Shown piece by piece: positions 198-10,644 of a DNA stretch of 52,338 bases. The notes under the pieces are model-generated. The model did not search any database. It was not told the DNA's origin and saw nothing but the letters and a program-made list of their open reading frames with translations. Position 1 is the first letter of the stretch; every line of letters begins with the position of its first letter. The DNA lies in the NCBI GenBank assembly GCA_919901915.1, contig CAKKQB010000003.1, positions 7,530-59,867 of the forward strand, in the 5' to 3' direction. The translations under genes and the position numbers were made by a program. The stretch comes from Omnitrophica bacterium GWA2_41_15 (GTDB taxonomy: Bacteria > Omnitrophota > Gorgyraeia > Gygaellales > Profunditerraquicolaceae).

Positions 198-851
198 CAC
201 GTGTTCTACCTGTTACCAGGTAGCGTGGACTATCTCTTCATCCCGACAATCTGTCAGGAGCCTAGCGTATTATAGAAGGCATAATTTACCGTTGGTTCAA
301 TTTTCTAATTTCAGCAACAAGCTCATACTTTTTTGCTAGCATTTCAGGAGTATACCTTCCTGTTCGAGGCGTAACTGCTTTATACTTAGTAGTAATTAAT
401 TCTGCTTGTTGCTTTTTAATAATTAGATATTGTTTTATTTCATTGAGAAAGCGTATAGCCCTATCCTGTCTCACATTTAAAACATAAGAATCGTTATGGT
501 GGGGTAATCGTTTTTTCTTAGCACATATATTACCTCCAACTAAGAATTTAATCCACTTTAAAAGCTCCAAATTATTGTTAGCAATACCCACAAATGGAAT
601 AGGCGTCTCATTTTTATGGTGCTTCATAAGTGTTACTGTCCCCTCGCCATCTACGATTCCTGCTAAATACGCTTTCGCAACTTCTTCCAACGGTTCACCT
701 CCTATCCCCTTAATTAAGGAAGTCTCTGCAGGGCTTGCACCCCTCAGGATTACCCTCGACTTCCTGTCTGACGGCAGGCAGGTACGTTTGGGCTTCCCTG
801 ATTAAGCTAGATTTTTCACTAAGAGTTACCTCTTAGCGCGACTCATTTTGA
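198..851 (-). mobile_element. Group I intron in the T-loop of tmRNA, with internal homing endonuclease gene
   Basis: The 5' exon ends ...TTCGAT at 852 and the intron begins TCAAAATGAGTCG. CGAT|TC pairs with GAGTCG to form P1, with the exon-terminal U facing a G, the group I hallmark. Core segments are recognisable: a Q-like AATCAGGGAAGCCC (about 789-802), an R-like GCAGAGACTTCC (about 719-730) and an S-like AAGAGATAGTCC (227-238). GACT in R pairs with AGTC in S (P7). Near the 3' end CTACCTG-GTAA-CAGGTAG forms a P9-like hairpin with a GNRA loop. The intron ends in G at 198. Joining at this point restores a seven-base T-loop (TTCGATT) closed by GCCGG/CCGGC. The endonuclease gene lies between R and S, probably in the P8 loop. 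Confidence 0.9.
286..690 (-). CDS. LAGLIDADG homing endonuclease of the tmRNA intron
   Basis: The 134-residue protein has one LAGLIDADG motif near the N-terminus (YLAGIVDGEGTV, residues 8-19), so it would act as a homodimer like I-CreI. Members of this family cut the intron-free allele and so copy the intron into it; the expected target is the uninterrupted ssrA T-loop. The start is TTG at 690, chosen because AGGAGGTG lies directly upstream at good spacing. The frame is intact and both acidic positions of the motif (D and E in GIVDGEG) are present, so the enzyme may be active. It may also help splicing, as some relatives do. Confidence 0.9.
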   Translation of the reverse strand: MEEVAKAYLAGIVDGEGTVTLMKHHKNETPIPFVGIANNNLELLKWIKFLVGGNICAKKKRLPHHNDSYVLNVRQDRAIRFLNEIKQYLIIKKQQAELITTKYKAVTPRTGRYTPEMLAKKYELVAEIRKLNQR

Positions 852-2997: not shown

Positions 2998-4179
2998 CTA
3001 CAGGCCTAAATCTGTGGGGGCTCTGCCTAGGGAATGTAGTAATTTTAAAAGAGAAGGAATTCGTTCCTCCGTTTTTTCATTAACGCCTATTCGCTGGGGA
3101 TAAATCTCATAGAACTGACGATATTTTTCCGGAGTAACGTTAACCATTAAAGAATTAGCGCCAGCCATCAACCCAAGCCTTAAAGCATTCTTTTCGCCTA
3201 ACGATTCCAAAGCCGTGGTCGCCAAAATTTTTGCCTCCGGATACTTAATGCGCGCTTGGGCAATGGTATTTAAAACCACGTCCATTCGCGGCTTAGGCGC
3301 TTTGGCTAACGGCGTATTGGGATGAGGAATAAAAGGCCCGAAAGAAAACATCTCTACTCCTAATGAATCAGTAACCTTTAAATCCTCAACAATATCCTGT
3401 TCTGTCTGGCCGGGCAAGCCGATTAAAAAACCACTCATTATTAAATAGCCTATATTTTTTAATTTTTTAATTAAATCCATGCGTTCTGCTAATTTATGAC
3501 CGGGCCGCATTTTCTCATAAATAGAAGAATTACTGCTTTCAAAACGCAAAAGCACCCCGCGGCAGCCTGCCTGATAAAGCTTCTCATAAACCTGTATCTC
3601 CCGCTCTCCAATGCTCAAGATAATTAAACAAGGAAATTTTTCCTGAATTTCTTTTACTATAGCCAACAACTGCTCAAGGGTATACCAGGAGGCTTCTCCT
3701 GATTGTAAAACCAAGGCTTTAAATCCCAGGGTTTTTACCGCGTATTCCACGGAACGCGTTATTTCTTCAGGCGCCATTCTATAACGAAAAACGCTGGTGT
3801 TGCTTTTTCTTATGCCGCAATAAAGGCAATCGCATTGGCAATAATTAGAAAATTCTATAATCCCATGAACACAGCAGGAATTACCGTGATATTTATGCCT
3901 GACACTATTTGCTTTCTGATAAAGGGTCTTGGTTTCTTTTTGAACAAGTTCGCGGTCAACCTCTTGAAGCCTAAAAAATAATTCTTTCCAAGTTTCTAGT
4001 ATGGATAAGGCTTCGGAAAGAGAAATTTTTTGGATAATAAAACCGCCTTGGGCATAAACATATTCGCCCACGCTCAAAGCAAAAAAATCATTGCGAACCT
4101 TTTTTTTCTCGCCAAAATATTCAATAATGGCAGTATTACCTTGCGCTTCTAAAACTTTTCCGGGGATAGCGTAGCACAT
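2998..4179 (-). CDS. hydE: HypC-HydE fusion: hydrogenase chaperone domain plus radical SAM maturase
   Basis: The protein has 393 residues. Residues 1-75 form a complete HypC/HybG domain: MCYAIPGKV with the metal-carrying Cys2, then GGFIIQKI and the EAL helix. In known systems HypC carries the Fe(CN)2CO unit to the [NiFe] large subunit. From about residue 85 it is HydE, the radical SAM partner of HydG: FSNYCQCDCLYCGIRKSN (cluster cysteines C114, C118, C121), LQSGE, MSGFLIGLPGQT and GPFIPHPNTPLA. HydE alone is about 350 residues, so the excess equals the HypC domain. The start ATG overlaps the TAA of hydG (TAATG). The His of the HydE RHET motif is replaced (LLRFESSN). PylB or biotin synthase are less likely given these motifs. 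The fusion is not one I know. Confidence 0.9.
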   Translation of the reverse strand: MCYAIPGKVLEAQGNTAIIEYFGEKKKVRNDFFALSVGEYVYAQGGFIIQKISLSEALSILETWKELFFRLQEVDRELVQKETKTLYQKANSVRHKYHGNSCCVHGIIEFSNYCQCDCLYCGIRKSNTSVFRYRMAPEEITRSVEYAVKTLGFKALVLQSGEASWYTLEQLLAIVKEIQEKFPCLIILSIGEREIQVYEKLYQAGCRGVLLRFESSNSSIYEKMRPGHKLAERMDLIKKLKNIGYLIMSGFLIGLPGQTEQDIVEDLKVTDSLGVEMFSFGPFIPHPNTPLAKAPKPRMDVVLNTIAQARIKYPEAKILATTALESLGEKNALRLGLMAGANSLMVNVTPEKYRQFYEIYPQRIGVNEKTEERIPSLLKLLHSLGRAPTDLGL

Positions 4180-5552
4180 TAGAAATATAAGTCTCTTTTA
4201 CCGTTACTAATTTCACCTAAACGCTTTTGTGTCTCCTGACGCAACGGAAGGTCTTCTATTTTTTTTAAATAAAACTCTAAACAAGCTTTACCCTGTTCAC
4301 GCAAATCGTTACTAGAAAAATCTTCCAGATACTCGGCAAAGGTAAGTATAGCATTTACCCGGCAGAATTTATGAATTTCTCCGTGTTTAGAAAATTCCAT
4401 AAATTTGCCCCCTGTCCGGTCTCGGCGATAACAGGCAGTACAAAAACTGGGCAGAAAACCATCGGAAAGCGCGGTCTTGACCACTTCTTCTAATCGCCGG
4501 TTATCATGAATTTTAAACTGCGGCTGAGAATCTTTGCTTCCATAACCGCCGATAGTCACGCAAGAAGCGGCAGATGCCTGAGAAACACCAATTTGAAAAG
4601 CTTTTTTTCTTATTTGAGGATTCTCGCGGGTAGAAATAATTATCCCCGTATAAGGAACCACTATCCTTAAAATAGCGATGAGCTTCAAAAAATCATCATC
4701 ACTTACCGGATATTGTGATTTAAAAGTTACTGAAGGAGCATTCTGAAAACGCGGCACAGAAATAGTATGCGGCCCAACCTTGTAAACTTTGTCTAAATAT
4801 TGCGCGTGGCTAATCAAGGCCAATACTTCAAAGCGCCAATCATACAAACCAAAAAGCACGCCTATTCCCAAGTCATCTAAACCCGCGGCAAAAGCGCGCG
4901 AATGGGCAGTAATTTGTCTTTCATAATCCGCCTTTGGGCCGCGATGCAAACGAGCGTATGTCGGGCGATGATATGTTTCCTGAAAAAGCTGATAAGTGCC
5001 AATATTCGCTTTTTTTAATTTACGGTAATCACTAACAGAAGTAGCGGCAATATTCACGTTTATTCTGCGAATACTACCTTTGTCTGTCTTTACGGAATAA
5101 ATTTTTTTTATCGCCCTTACCACATAATCAATATCATTATGCTGAGGGTCTTCTCCGCACTCAAGGAGAATTCTCTTATGGCCCATATTTATCAGAATCG
5201 CGGTCTGCTCTCCTATCTCTTTCAAAGTTAATCTCTTACGCCGTAACTGCTTGTTAGCGAGATGAAAATTGCAATATTCACAATCATTAACGCAATAATC
5301 TGAAAGATATAACGGAGCAAAAAAAACTAACCTTTCTCCGTAAATTTCATTTTTCACCCATCCCGCGGCGGCAAATAATTTTTTTTTAAGCTCCGGCTGA
5401 TTAAAATTAACCAACGACCCCGCATCCTTTAATTCTAAACCTTTCTTTTCCCTGGCTTTCTTAAGAATCTTTAGGATAGTCCGCGAAGAAGGATTTTTTG
5501 TCTCGGCTAAAATATCCCTTATTTTTCTTTCGTCAATTATCTTTTCTTTCAT
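4179..5552 (-). CDS. hydG: HydG, tyrosine lyase of H-cluster assembly
   Basis: HydG splits tyrosine to make CO and cyanide on iron; the known use is the [FeFe] hydrogenase H-cluster. The 457 residues match the family length (about 470). The radical SAM motif CVNDCEYC (C87, C91, C94) follows FAPLYLSDY, as in HydG. The C-terminal auxiliary-cluster motif, specific to HydG and absent from ThiH, is present as CTAC and then Cys after exactly 22 residues (C371, C374, C397), within FCTACYRRDRTGGKFM. It lies downstream of a [NiFe] hydrogenase and its protease and is coupled to hydE. No HydF or [FeFe] catalytic subunit is in the window. Confidence 0.95.
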   Translation of the reverse strand: MKEKIIDERKIRDILAETKNPSSRTILKILKKAREKKGLELKDAGSLVNFNQPELKKKLFAAAGWVKNEIYGERLVFFAPLYLSDYCVNDCEYCNFHLANKQLRRKRLTLKEIGEQTAILINMGHKRILLECGEDPQHNDIDYVVRAIKKIYSVKTDKGSIRRINVNIAATSVSDYRKLKKANIGTYQLFQETYHRPTYARLHRGPKADYERQITAHSRAFAAGLDDLGIGVLFGLYDWRFEVLALISHAQYLDKVYKVGPHTISVPRFQNAPSVTFKSQYPVSDDDFLKLIAILRIVVPYTGIIISTRENPQIRKKAFQIGVSQASAASCVTIGGYGSKDSQPQFKIHDNRRLEEVVKTALSDGFLPSFCTACYRRDRTGGKFMEFSKHGEIHKFCRVNAILTFAEYLEDFSSNDLREQGKACLEFYLKKIEDLPLRQETQKRLGEISNGKRDLYF

Positions 5553-5696: not shown

Positions 5697-6329
5697 TTAA
5701 TATTCCGGTAATTTCTTAATAAACGCGCTAATTTTTTTTACGATGAGAGCCTTATTATTTTGCAATTTCTTGCTTAAACCTTCACCGTAAGAGATATCTT
5801 TAATCTGTATCCCGGCTATGTATATTTTTGTTTTAAGTTCAAATTTTTTCGAAAGCTCAAATATGTCTTTTAAATTAAGTTCGTGGGTAGAGCTGATAAA
5901 ACCCTTTAAGTCATATTTAATACTATTTAAATCAAATATCTTAAGTTCCCCAACGTTTAACCCTGCCTCTATCCCGTCAATAAGCAGAACTGTATCAAAG
6001 TCCCGCATCTTGAGAATCAAATCAAAACTTGCTATCCCGAAATTAAAATACTCTACAGTGCCTTTTTTTGTATCATTCAGACTGTGTCGCAACTCTACTT
6101 TTGTGTCATTGCGATACTTCCGAAGGAAGCCGTGGCAATCTTTCTCCGACGGGACACATTCTTTTTTCTGGTTTTGGCTATAAGAAACTAGACCACTGCC
6201 TTGCGGCTTGCGGGATAACTTCCTGCTGTCAGGACAAAGATTAAGGAGAGATTCCAGAATGTTTACACCTATTCCGTCATCTCTCCTTAGAGTATTACCA
6301 ATTCCAATTACCGCTATTTTTTTTTGCAC
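5697..6329 (-). CDS. [NiFe] hydrogenase maturation protease (peptidase M52), with in-frame repeat insertion
   Basis: M52 proteases remove the C-terminal tail of the large subunit after nickel is inserted. The family motif GIGNTLRRDDGIG is at residues 9-21, with the first nickel-binding acid in DDG. The second acid (D in VLLIDGIEAG) and the histidine (STHELNL) are also present. The family is usually 150-160 residues; this has 210 because residues 32-91 are repeat-derived. The start is a GTG at 6329 overlapping hydA by 16 bases. Its likely substrate is the HydA encoded just upstream, which ends DPCISCATH plus a 15-residue tail. Confidence 0.88.
   Translation of the reverse strand: MQKKIAVIGIGNTLRRDDGIGVNILESLLNLCPDSRKLSRKPQGSGLVSYSQNQKKECVPSEKDCHGFLRKYRNDTKVELRHSLNDTKKGTVEYFNFGIASFDLILKMRDFDTVLLIDGIEAGLNVGELKIFDLNSIKYDLKGFISSTHELNLKDIFELSKKFELKTKIYIAGIQIKDISYGEGLSKKLQNNKALIVKKISAFIKKLPEY
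6057..6236. repeat. Repeat-derived 180-bp in-frame insertion in the protease gene
   Basis: This segment encodes about 60 residues (32-91) with no counterpart in M52 proteases, falling between the first and second metal-ligand motifs. It contains sequence typical of dispersed genome repeats, such as the palindromic CTTCCGAAGGAAG and the GTGTCATTGCGA edge. The insertion length is divisible by three and contains no stop in the frame used. Confidence 0.7.
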
Positions 6330-7690
6330 TTCAATCCATTAACAAACTTTACGTCCAATAAATGCGTAGCGCAGGATATACACGGATCATAAGACCTTGC
6401 CAACATCTCTAAAGCAAGGGTTATTTCTTCCTCTGTTTTTTTACCCAGCAGCTCCGGAACAATTTTGCGCATATCTTCTTCTAAATTACCCAGATTCTGG
6501 TTCGTGGGTATTACGCAATTTGCATAGTTAATAAAACCTTTATCATCTATAGTATACTCATGGAATAAAGAGCCTCTGGGAACTTCCACGCAACTTATGC
6601 CTGTGTTGGGTTTATATTTAATCTTGCCAATTTCGCTTCTTTTTGGCCAAGATGACACAACCACCTTCTCCTCATTAAGGCCATCTTTTAAAATCTTTTC
6701 CATTATCTTGATGGACTCCTCGAGGCAATGGACCCACTCTACAAGCTGACAGGCAGTGTTAAGATATGGATTGTGACAGGGCGACTTTAAACCTAATTCT
6801 TTCGCTACATGCTTGGCTTTTTTATTGAGTTTTTCGTAATTATTATTAAATCTTGAAAGCGCGCCCACGGCATAAGGCTTGCCATTTATAGTCGCGAATT
6901 TAGCCATGGAGTGATCTACTATATTTTCAGTTAAAAGTTTTTTATAGTTGCTTACTTTTTGTCTCTCCGCGCCATTTACAGTTAATTCTCCGTCATACAT
7001 CGCGTACTCTTCGTCGCTCTCAAGTGATAAATACTGGGTTGGCCTTTGAAACTCCGGAAACTTAAGAGTCTTAATGATCTCCACTGTCGCGTCGCCATCC
7101 TCGCGCGATTGGAGCATTAATTTGTATAATTTTTCCAGCCCGTCCCTGGAAGGCAATTGCGTAAGCCCGCCTATTACATAACTTATAGGATGAATATGGC
7201 GGCCCGCTAAAACCTCACCACCATAATCACTCATTCTCTTCATCCTTAAGGCCATCTCAATAATCGGTTTATGGGTCTTTATAAGAGGCATAATACTTTT
7301 CACGCCTAAAAGATCAGGGGCTACCAGAATATAAATATGAAGAATATGGCTATCCAACTGCTCCATATAAAGCAAGAGCTTACGCAGCATAACAACCTCA
7401 TCAGACGGTTTTATACCTAAAGCGTCTTCGCCCGCTTTAATGCTGGCTAAACTATGGCCGCAAGCGCATATACCGCAAATCCTGCTGGTTATATGCTGCG
7501 CTTCCCAAATAGGCCTGCCAACAAGCATAGACTCAAAGAAACGCGGAGATTCAATAACCTGAAATTCACACTTAGTAAGCACTCCATTTTGAACATCAAC
7601 CACTATATTACCATGGCCTTCAACCCTGGTTAAATAATGGACATCTACCTTAACATCCTTAGAATATATTTTACTTGAGTTCTTTGTCAT
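6314..7690 (-). CDS. hydA: [NiFe] hydrogenase large (catalytic) subunit, group 3b type
   Basis: This subunit carries the Ni-Fe active site. It has the N-terminal RVEGHGNI, the L1 motif RICGICACGHS (C72, C75) and the C-terminal L2 motif DPCISCATH (C437, C440), so all four metal cysteines are present. A 15-residue tail after the histidine is expected to be cleaved by the M52 protease encoded next. The ATG at 7690 is preferred because GGGGG lies about six bases before it; an ATG at 7711 in the same frame lacks such a site. It overlaps the hydD end by 20 bases. With the beta, gamma and delta subunits upstream it forms a sulfhydrogenase-like, NAD(P)-linked cytoplasmic enzyme. Confidence 0.95.
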   Translation of the reverse strand: MTKNSSKIYSKDVKVDVHYLTRVEGHGNIVVDVQNGVLTKCEFQVIESPRFFESMLVGRPIWEAQHITSRICGICACGHSLASIKAGEDALGIKPSDEVVMLRKLLLYMEQLDSHILHIYILVAPDLLGVKSIMPLIKTHKPIIEMALRMKRMSDYGGEVLAGRHIHPISYVIGGLTQLPSRDGLEKLYKLMLQSREDGDATVEIIKTLKFPEFQRPTQYLSLESDEEYAMYDGELTVNGAERQKVSNYKKLLTENIVDHSMAKFATINGKPYAVGALSRFNNNYEKLNKKAKHVAKELGLKSPCHNPYLNTACQLVEWVHCLEESIKIMEKILKDGLNEEKVVVSSWPKRSEIGKIKYKPNTGISCVEVPRGSLFHEYTIDDKGFINYANCVIPTNQNLGNLEEDMRKIVPELLGKKTEEEITLALEMLARSYDPCISCATHLLDVKFVNGLKCKKK

Positions 7691-8435
7691 ACTTTTCCCC
7701 CATTGAATCATTGTACAAAGTAAACCGTTGTAGTATCTCTTCTACCGTAAGCCCGTATTTTAATAGGATGTCCTTTGCCGCGTTCACCGCGGGATTTTCT
7801 AAAAGCCCCCTGCAGCCGTAACACTTATTCCCATTATTAACGCACCATGAGTTACAACCTGCCTTAGTAAGCGCCCCTAAACACTCCTGATCTTTTTCAT
7901 ACAGGCAGACATTCTCGTTCATCTTGCACTCCGCGCAAACCGCGTAATTCGGAACAACATAAGGCTTACCCATTAAAACACACTTGATGACATTTACTAC
8001 TTCAGAAAGGTGCACCGGGCAGCCGTTAATAAAATAATCCACATTAACTACTTTATGAACCGGCATCGCGTTAATAGTGTTTACAATGCCTGCCTTTTCA
8101 CCATAAACCCTTTGCTTAGCTGTCTCAAGAGGCGCGCGATTTTTAATTCCATTTACGCCTCCAGTAGTAGCGCAGGCTCCCATGGCAATTAAAATTTTTG
8201 CTTTCTCTCTAATCTTTTTTATGCGCTTGACGTCATTATCAGTTGAGATAGAACCCTCTACAACAGCTACATCATAATCTTCGCTATCCTCGGATATTAC
8301 CTCACGGAATTTAACTATATCTACCAGCTGGGTTAACTCAACAAGCGTCATACCCATATTAGCGAATTGAAGCTGACAGCCTTCACAATCCGTAAAATCA
8401 AAAAAAGCTAATTTTGGCTTAGATTGTTTTTTCAT
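7671..8435 (-). CDS. hydD: [NiFe] hydrogenase small (delta) subunit
   Basis: The small subunit relays electrons from the Ni-Fe site. The proximal cluster motifs are DCEGCQLQ, GACATTGG and NGCPVH. The C-terminal part has further cysteines (CAECKMNENVC, then CNSWCVNNGNKCYGCRG), fitting extra [4Fe-4S] clusters. No twin-arginine signal is present, so it is cytoplasmic as in group 3 enzymes. The ATG at 8435 is chosen because GGAGG lies 11 bases ahead; the upstream TTG at 8453 overlaps that ribosome site. It lies 45 bp after the gamma subunit gene. Confidence 0.93.
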   Translation of the reverse strand: MKKQSKPKLAFFDFTDCEGCQLQFANMGMTLVELTQLVDIVKFREVISEDSEDYDVAVVEGSISTDNDVKRIKKIREKAKILIAMGACATTGGVNGIKNRAPLETAKQRVYGEKAGIVNTINAMPVHKVVNVDYFINGCPVHLSEVVNVIKCVLMGKPYVVPNYAVCAECKMNENVCLYEKDQECLGALTKAGCNSWCVNNGNKCYGCRGLLENPAVNAAKDILLKYGLTVEEILQRFTLYNDSMGEKYDKELK

Positions 8436-8480
8436 CCCAATAAATACCTCCAATTAATCCCGCCTTAAAAATTAATATAC

Positions 8481-9344
8481 CTAACGAGACTCGTGACACT
8501 CTCCTTTAAAATTTTTTAAATCCGCGCAGGTAAACACCGGCCCTGATTGGCAAGCATATATTCCCTCAATCTGACAATGGCCGCATTTTCCTAAGCCGCA
8601 ACGCATCCTTCTTTCCAGAGAAACAATGATTTGATGATCTGGAATTTCTTTTTTTAAAAGCTCCGCTATTACAAATCTATACATTATAGGAGGGCCGACC
8701 ACAACCGCGTATGTCCTGCTGGGATTAATATCTACACCCGGAATCAAGGTCGTAATAAGCCCCACATTACCCTGCCATTCAGGCTCTGCCTTATCTACCG
8801 TACAATTCACATTAACTTCAGCTCTCTTCAACCAATCTTTTATTTCTTCTTTAAATAAAAGCTCTCTGGGCGTTTTACAGCCAACGAGCAAATGAACATT
8901 GCCAAAATCATTCCGGTTATACATAATGTATCTTATTAAAGATCGAAGCGGCACTATCCCTAACCCGCCGGCAACGATGAGTAAATCATAACCAAACATA
9001 TTATCTATGGGAAAACCTTTTCCAAACGGGCCGCGTATACCCAGGACATCTCCTTTTTCCATCTGATGCAATTTATTAGTAAAAATACCAGCATTTCTCA
9101 CCGTAAGGTCAAAAAACCCCTTGTCTGTGGGAGAAGAACAGATAGATATCGGCGCTTCGGCAAAACCAAATATTGAAACCATTACAAATTGACCCGGCTC
9201 ATGCGCAAGATTAATCTTTCCTTCGAGCTCAATACGAAAAAACTTCTCTTTCTCGGTAAGCATATAAGCCTGAATTAACTTTGCCTTCATCGGCTTATAA
9301 GGAGAAGTTTTCATCTTTTCTAAAAGTATCTCCCTATCAATCAT
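8481..9344 (-). CDS. Sulfhydrogenase-type gamma subunit (FAD/NAD(P)-binding)
   Basis: This 287-residue protein belongs to the ferredoxin-NADP reductase/dihydroorotate dehydrogenase electron-transfer family. An N-terminal FAD-binding barrel (EPGQFVMVSIFG, then APISICSSP) is followed by an NAD(P)-binding domain (LLIVAGGLGIVPLRSLI). A C-terminal [2Fe-2S] motif follows (RMRCGLGKCGHCQ, then a fourth Cys before SGPVF). In Pyrococcus this subunit is also called HydG, unrelated to the radical SAM HydG encoded downstream. It links H2 oxidation or production to pyridine nucleotides. It overlaps hydB by four bases (ATGA). Confidence 0.93.
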   Translation of the reverse strand: MIDREILLEKMKTSPYKPMKAKLIQAYMLTEKEKFFRIELEGKINLAHEPGQFVMVSIFGFAEAPISICSSPTDKGFFDLTVRNAGIFTNKLHQMEKGDVLGIRGPFGKGFPIDNMFGYDLLIVAGGLGIVPLRSLIRYIMYNRNDFGNVHLLVGCKTPRELLFKEEIKDWLKRAEVNVNCTVDKAEPEWQGNVGLITTLIPGVDINPSRTYAVVVGPPIMYRFVIAELLKKEIPDHQIIVSLERRMRCGLGKCGHCQIEGIYACQSGPVFTCADLKNFKGECHESR

Positions 9345-10387
9345 TTTGATGCTCCTTCTGCCTCTTCTTTAAGAAGAGCGTTTAAAGTTTCAACAAGTTT
9401 TATCTTGGCCATGCACGACCTGGTGCACCGGCCGCAGCCAGTGCAAAAATACCTGTTAAATTTATCAACTGAATACTTAAATTTTCTATAATACCTGTGC
9501 CGCTGCCTTGCGTCAGAGCCTTTACGAAAATCTTCTCCGCCTGCCACCTTAGCAAAGTCATCCATCTGGCATGAATTCCATATGCGGTATCTCATTCCCT
9601 CGTTAAGAGACAAGTCTACCTCATCTACAGTATCAAAACAGTAACAGGTAGGACATACCGCGGTACAATTACCGCAAGCTAAACAACGTTTACCAACATC
9701 CTTCCAGATAGCTGAATTAAAATGCTTATCAAACGCTTCATAAACCTTAGACAAAGAAGAACTAAATTCTTCTTTAAATACTTTTTTCTTAGCTTCTCTT
9801 ACGCGCTCAAGGCTAATCATATCTTTTTCAGAAGCCTCTTTAATATAATCTAAATTGACAACCAACTTTTCACCCTTCTCTGAATTTATATGCAATATAA
9901 ATTTCTCTCCGATATCAATCATCATCAAATCATAACCGCCGCGGGGAACATGATTGCCCATTGAAGCGCAATTCGCGTGCTCATCGCAATATTGAAGGCA
10001 TTCAACGCCTATAATAGTCATCTTATCTTTTCTATTTAAATAATTCGGGTCTTCCGGGCTCTCTCTAAATATCACGTCCATGCATTGGATACCAGCAATA
10101 TCACAGGTATGCACGGCGAAAAGAATAAATTCTTCAAATTCATTTATCGCCCGAGATGTCTTAAAGGGGTTGATATTAAATTTCAATAATTTTTCTTTTT
10201 GGGGAAAATAATATTTCTTGGGAGGCAAAATGGTAGGAATATAATTTAGGCAAATTTCACTCACATCTTTAATTGGCCTAAAAACAAAAAGGCCCTCTTT
10301 TTTCTTTGGCGCGTAAAACTTTGCTTTTTCCATTAAACGCTTAAACCATAGGTTTAAGTCTTCTTTTTTTATAACCGCGTATTTCAC
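9341..10387 (-). CDS. hydB: Sulfhydrogenase-type beta subunit (iron-sulfur electron transfer)
   Basis: The 348-residue protein has two C-terminal ferredoxin-like cluster motifs, KRCLACGNCTAVCPTCYCFD and FCTGCGRCTRSCMAK. The N-terminal region (FILFAVHTCDIAGIQCMD) resembles HydB of sulfhydrogenase and AsrA of anaerobic sulfite reductase. It passes electrons between the gamma flavoprotein and the small subunit. The start is a GTG at 10387 with GGAGG upstream. AsrA is the alternative name, but the hydrogenase subunits alongside settle it. Confidence 0.92.
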   Translation of the reverse strand: MKYAVIKKEDLNLWFKRLMEKAKFYAPKKKEGLFVFRPIKDVSEICLNYIPTILPPKKYYFPQKEKLLKFNINPFKTSRAINEFEEFILFAVHTCDIAGIQCMDVIFRESPEDPNYLNRKDKMTIIGVECLQYCDEHANCASMGNHVPRGGYDLMMIDIGEKFILHINSEKGEKLVVNLDYIKEASEKDMISLERVREAKKKVFKEEFSSSLSKVYEAFDKHFNSAIWKDVGKRCLACGNCTAVCPTCYCFDTVDEVDLSLNEGMRYRIWNSCQMDDFAKVAGGEDFRKGSDARQRHRYYRKFKYSVDKFNRYFCTGCGRCTRSCMAKIKLVETLNALLKEEAEGASK

Positions 10388-10401: not shown

Positions 10402-10644
10402 CTATACAAAATCCAATTTCGTGATTTCTAATTCAGGACCGAAAGGCGTTTTTTTAATTTCTATCTCTAAAGACTCTCGCTTCGTGCCAACTACCTCGTT
10501 TCTAAAATGTTCCCTGAAATGCTCTTCGCTTATACCGCCTAATTCTGAAAGCGAGATATAAATTTTTATTAATTTTTTAGCGGATAACTTTTCTTCTTTT
10601 TCAAGATATCGAAACAAATTCTTTAAAAGATAACTCTCATGCAT
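10402..10644 (-). CDS. HypA-like nickel chaperone lacking the zinc domain
   Basis: HypA delivers nickel to [NiFe] enzymes. This 80-residue protein begins MHES, and the family's Met1-His2-Glu3 nickel site is kept. The LIKIYISLSELGGISEEHF stretch matches the HypA beta strand and helix. After ESLEIEIKKTP, where the two CxxC pairs of the zinc loop should follow, it goes directly to PELEITKLDFV, which resembles the last HypA strand. There is no cysteine in the protein. HypA is usually about 115 residues. It is the first gene of the hydrogenase operon, 14 bp before hydB. An unrelated small protein is possible but the match is good at both ends. Confidence 0.75.
   Translation of the reverse strand: MHESYLLKNLFRYLEKEEKLSAKKLIKIYISLSELGGISEEHFREHFRNEVVGTKRESLEIEIKKTPFGPELEITKLDFV

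Follow-up and report, generated by a model that had tools for sequence, protein, structure and literature searches.

The sequence analysed here (the window) is a stretch of 52,338 nt from Omnitrophica bacterium GWA2_41_15 (contig CAKKQB010000003.1, positions 7,530-59,867). On its minus strand, positions 2998-4179 encode a protein of 393 aa that begins MCYAIPGKV and combines a HypC domain (residues 1-75) with a HydE radical SAM domain (residues 75-385), with linker helices extending over approximately residues 54-98. An earlier note on this DNA had read the gene as a fusion of HypC to HydE, and profile searches bear this out: Pfam HupF_HypC is matched over its complete length (profile 1-65 of 65) by residues 1-64 (4.2e-14), and the NCBIfam HydE profile TIGR03956 matches residues 75-385 with 267 bits, above its curated cut-off of 254.6. 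Pfam Radical_SAM (3.2e-19) covers residues 108-268, BATS is also detected (9e-5), and the NCBIfam hypC profile TIGR00074 scores 45.1 bits, slightly below its cut-off of 48. A sequence search of the PDB returned TmHydE (2e-71) and the HypC structure 2z1c (6e-11). In the whole-chain AlphaFold model both domains are predicted with confidence (pLDDT 90.9, pTM 0.91), and the top fold matches of this model are TmHydE structures, entries with bound complex B among them. The CX3CX2C motif of the HydE domain lies at C114/C118/C121, and Cys2 of the HypC domain is expected to be the iron-carrying cysteine. Elsewhere in the window, a 134-aa ORF (286-690, minus strand) resembles, by eye, a LAGLIDADG homing endonuclease and is putatively assigned as such.

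The gene for HydG (4179-5552, minus strand; 457 aa; 522 bits to TIGR03955) adjoins the fusion gene directly upstream, the stop and start codons overlapping in TAATG, and the pair closes a [NiFe] hydrogenase operon. The encoded protein retains the radical SAM motif CX3CX2C, the histidine of the dangler iron (GPHT) and, near its C-terminus, the auxiliary-cluster motif CTACYR...C. HydG is the operon partner of the fusion, and the suggestion in the earlier note that two maturation routes meet in this protein is sustained. Also on the minus strand are a [NiFe]-hydrogenase maturation protease of the HycI/HyaD type (5697-6329; PF01750, 5e-12; TIGR00072, 1e-24) and a [NiFe] hydrogenase large subunit (6314-7711) with RICGIC, DPCISCATH, the arginine of PRG, the threonine of IPT and a C-terminal extension. 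These are accompanied by a HydD/ShyD-like small subunit (7671-8453), a FAD/NAD(P)-binding subunit resembling sulfhydrogenase gamma/AsrB (8481-9344) and a HydB/ShyB-like iron-sulfur subunit (9341-10387), all three on the minus strand and assigned by Pfam and NCBIfam profiles. Both CxxC metal-ligand motifs and the four-subunit layout of sulfhydrogenases are present; as the NCBIfam equivalog cut-offs of the named sulfhydrogenases are not reached, the enzyme is designated group-3b-like by resemblance. A short HypA-like protein of 80 aa (10402-10644, minus strand) matches PF01155 below threshold (23.2 bits against a cut-off of 28.9); it keeps the N-terminal MHE of the nickel site and lacks the C-terminal zinc domain, and homologous short ORFs occupy the matching place in other fusion operons. 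The family-library scan covered the ORFs of this operon, and what is said below on the absence of other maturases comes from genome-wide searches. Elsewhere (G063, L045 4194-6026; likewise L119), a 610-aa ORF runs in frame from a [NiFe] large subunit into the maturation protease for that subunit, such that in G063 the C-terminal extension would be the protease itself.

A GTDB-wide scan with an alignment of 18 fusions as the query yielded 197 related loci, and nearly all of the best 80 encode full-length fusions. By the labels written in the records, the hosts of these 80 comprise Omnitrophota, Planctomycetota (including the anammox bacterium Scalindua), Lentisphaerota, Elusimicrobiota, WOR-3, Saganbacteria/WOR-1, Firestonebacteria, Desantisbacteria, Spirochaetota, Patescibacteria and DPANN archaea, together with one MAG each labelled Bdellovibrio and Gammaproteobacteria. 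Under a strict test for a start of the form MC..[IV]P, 77 of the 80 encode the fusion in one ORF, the other three deviating in the start codon only. The earlier note had allowed that the fusion might be a sequencing artefact; its recurrence as one ORF in other genomes speaks against this, and with approximately 100 genome records, single ORFs and small contig numbers (one or two contigs in G302 and G076), a fusion made by chance or by assembly is ruled out.

In 55 of the 80 loci, no more than 1.5 kb separates HydG from the fusion, and several of the others lie close to contig ends. The same pair also closes large operons for group-4-like membrane hydrogenases, where it stands immediately 3′ of the protease. 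In one genome (G076, L046 8651-11395), a single ORF of 915 aa constitutes a natural triple fusion, HypC-HydE-HydG, whose HydG part carries a CX5CX19C variant of the cluster motif that was reported earlier from clostridial acetogens (PMC9431212). Two genomes possess a second HydG paralogue with the motif CTAGYRC, away from the hydrogenase operon (L061 7823-9316 in G005; L062 7723-9228 in G067), within a gene cluster that both share. At two further loci (L113 and L133), an [FeFe] HydA-like gene and HydG come after a [NiFe] group 3b operon that includes HypC-HydE, a layout in which a single HydG may serve both hydrogenase types.

The genome from which the window derives is 96% complete, and searches of it returned no HypD, HypE, HypF or HydA, and no HydF above the cut-off. 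These searches, including those for HypE, HypF, HydF and HydA, were extended to 117 relatives ranging from the genus of the window up to its class; nearly all genomes compared are MAGs, and the HypD search was positive in control genomes. The fusion, either full-length or cut at contig ends, occurs in 21 of the 117 relatives. HypD is found above the cut-off in 59, HypE in 60 (the G062 copy as two pieces below the cut-off), a HypF-like protein in 56, HydF above the cut-off in 29 and [FeFe] HydA in 33, and a [NiFe] large subunit is encoded by 85, plus G100 with a copy cut by a contig end. The matches to HydF that turn up in every genome below the cut-off were dismissed as generic GTPases, those in 20 of the 21 fusion genomes being confined to the GTPase domain. 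A marginal HypD match in G082 (18.9 bits over 33 residues) is noise. In most of the HypD-bearing relatives, only the C-terminal half of HypF (approximately profile positions 381-740) lies in one open frame, and cyanide synthesis in these organisms may therefore also be unusual.

All 21 relatives with the fusion encode a [NiFe] hydrogenase, and HypD, HypE and HypF are each absent from all 21. HydA and above-cut-off HydF are missing from 20; the exception, G004, has HydA, HydF and a separate canonical HydE besides the fusion. Among the 86 [NiFe] genomes, 54 have HypD, 21 have the fusion, none has both and 11 have neither, a mutual exclusion with a Fisher p of 2e-12, uncorrected for kinship. The two types are interleaved across families, including the family of the window itself. 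HydG accompanies the fusion in 18 of the 21 relatives, and in G093 (96% complete, 10 contigs) the fusion and [NiFe] genes are present and no HydG was found at E<=1e-30. A gene beside the fusion in G180 and G339 was considered as a substitute for HydG and rejected, as it encodes an amino-acid permease.

Three of the 11 genomes with neither type carry HypE or HypF, which suggests that their HypD was probably lost in assembly. In another of this group (G059), a group-4-like operon ends in HydG, which lies at a contig edge; in G001, a congener of the window's organism, a hydrogenase is present and neither the fusion nor HypD was found; and G028 and G031, with [NiFe] genes and without HypD or the fusion, have canonical HydEFG only. 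In 80 further genome records with the fusion (34 from the phylum and 46 reached via the loci), HypD was again found in none. As the earlier note had anticipated, the fusion tracks with [NiFe] hydrogenases here as well: a large subunit (PF00374) is present in 74 of the 80, including all 26 with a known completeness of 90% or more, and six lack a PF00374 match. Since some genomes are repeated (L071 is G006; G447 is G253), the counts for the 21 and the 80 are not fully additive.

In a tree rooted at the midpoint only, the HydE domains of the fusions fall on one side of a branch with 100/100 support, opposite 13 HydE of the [FeFe] type. Residues C2, C102, C103 and H105 are invariant in 100 of 100 fusion rows, and the last three are specific to fusions, with the corresponding positions in [FeFe]-type HydE being mostly V/I, H and R (V51, H52 and R54 in TmHydE). 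Because the CC motif was one key of the GTDB scan, 18 loci from a search without this key were checked, and CC.H is present in all 18. Between fusion genomes and HypD genomes, large subunits of the same type mostly share 76-84% identity (approximately 80%), and their ligand and cyanide-pocket motifs are identical. Within these motifs, we take the arginine of PRG and the serine or threonine of P[ST] to correspond to residues of known enzymes that form hydrogen bonds with the two cyanides.

Taking together gene content, the fusion itself, its operon linkage, its co-occurrence with [NiFe] hydrogenases and exclusion of HypD, and sequence conservation, all of which are direct observations, we conclude that HydG and the HypC-HydE fusion very probably replace HypC, HypD, HypE and HypF in the maturation of [NiFe] hydrogenases; the chemical steps and the hand-over described here are inferred from these data. 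Against it stand as exceptions G093 (fusion without a HydG match), G001, G028 and G031, together with the six fusion records that lack a PF00374 match. Where HypD, HypE and HypF are missing and HydG and HypC-HydE occur, the most economical view is that the product of HydG would pass to HydE, then to the tethered HypC and finally to the [NiFe] large subunit. HydG would make an Fe(CO)x(CN)y synthon from tyrosine, SAM, iron and cysteine, and the HydE domain would receive it and remove or rearrange ligands by radical SAM chemistry, a step that probably uses C102, C103 and H105, which are missing in [FeFe]-type HydE. Cys2 in the HypC part of the same chain would then take up the iron unit, HypC would place it in the apo-large subunit, and HypA-assisted nickel insertion followed by the protease of the operon would complete the enzyme. 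This evidence fits the proposal of the earlier note that HydE acts on the product of HydG and hands it to the attached HypC. The further proposal of that note, that HypC then docks on HydA, is not supported in the [FeFe] sense: HydA and HydF are lacking from the window's own genome and from 20 of the 21 relatives with the fusion, and with a [NiFe] large subunit in the same operon, this subunit is the expected acceptor.

In [FeFe] maturation, tyrosine is the source of both CO and CN for HydG, which assembles them into Fe(CN)(CO)2(Cys); this complex goes directly to HydE (PMC12752695). As this known product is not Fe(CN)2(CO), a further step that changes the ligands has to be postulated; either a CO-for-CN exchange is carried out by the fusion-type HydE or the final site is unusual. 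The finished iron would probably be the usual Fe(CN)2(CO), given the close relationship of the hydrogenases to those found alongside HypCDEF in other genomes. We regard it as rather unlikely that, in a third route to the iron cofactor of hydrogenases, HydG and HydE chemistry is diverted to [NiFe] enzymes through the HypC fusion and the site keeps the HydG ligands, giving hydrogenases with Ni-Fe(CO)2(CN) or some otherwise altered centre. We know of no enzyme for the CO/CN swap, which counts for such a site, as does the composition of the HydG product of [FeFe] maturation, with two CO and one CN (PMC12752695); the retained cyanide-pocket residues and the approximately 80% identity to subunits from HypD genomes count against it. 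It is quite improbable that HydG provides only CO or only CN, with another enzyme giving the rest and HydE-HypC assembling the unit, HydE scaffolding it as HypD does. The genome with the fusion and no recognisable HydG (G093) would suit this arrangement, in that the fusion may use another ligand source, and HydG is able to give off CO and CN in free form according to work cited in PMC9431212. However, HydG occurs in 18 of the 21 relatives, usually adjacent and with both catalytic sites intact, both ligands derive from tyrosine by its action, and HypE and HypF are absent.

The possibility that the fusion serves an [FeFe] hydrogenase, with HypC an accessory domain that helps HydE and HydG to feed HydF and HydA, derives from the definition of both families as [FeFe] maturases (NCBIfam), from a HydA gene near a few fusion loci (L109, L113, L133) and from the presence of both in G004. 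We consider it extremely unlikely, given that 20 of the 21 fusion genomes have neither HydA nor HydF, that the operons are [NiFe] operons and that even in G004 the fusion is kept separate, its contig carrying a [NiFe] large subunit; for the window's genome it is refuted unless HydA lies within the missing ~4%. Co-occurrence is a correlation, and the genomes are mostly MAGs, so that HypD loss and fusion gain might be unrelated, with the hydrogenases unmatured or the fusion in some other role. The lack of any overlap across approximately 100 genomes and many phyla, together with the operon coupling and the intact genes for the hydrogenase, the protease and the HypA-like protein, leaves this explanation with hardly any probability.

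HypCD is normally the site at which the Fe(CN)2(CO) unit of [NiFe] enzymes is put together, HypEF supplying the cyanide, and HydG is known to serve [FeFe] enzymes, the CO and CN of [NiFe] enzymes coming from different machinery (PMC6802093). A route independent of HypD, HypE and HypF, if true, would overturn this division and show that two radical SAM proteins, with ligands derived from tyrosine, are enough to build [NiFe] hydrogenases. It would also explain hydrogenase activation in many uncultured bacteria and DPANN archaea, imply that such organisms escape genome surveys in which hyp genes serve as the marker, and supply a two-gene maturation system for biotechnology; the fusion would provide a direct way into the hand-over of the Fe(CO)(CN) unit to HypC. 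In keeping with the earlier note, which knew of no described example, searches of open-access literature (subscription papers and preprints being outside the scope) yielded neither a HypC-HydE fusion nor maturation of [NiFe] enzymes by HydG or HydE.

The proposed route belongs to neither known pathway, though every part of it has known homologues. With the HypCDEF pathway it shares the target enzyme, a HypC domain with Cys2, a HypA-like protein and a C-terminal protease, but HypD is absent from all fusion genomes tested, as are HypE and HypF from the 21 relatives, and two radical SAM enzymes stand in their place. With the HydEFG pathway it shares a HydG with all catalytic motifs and the fold and radical SAM site of HydE, whereas HydF and HydA are lacking (20 of 21) and HydE is fused to HypC, forms one clade and has C102/C103/H105 in place of V51/H52/R54 of TmHydE; delivery of a mononuclear unit to a [NiFe] protein, rather than of a 2Fe dimer, would be expected. 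The HypX route likewise offers another way to obtain CO for this [NiFe] cofactor, but HypX acts together with HypC and HypD (PMC6802093), whereas here the whole set appears to be replaced.
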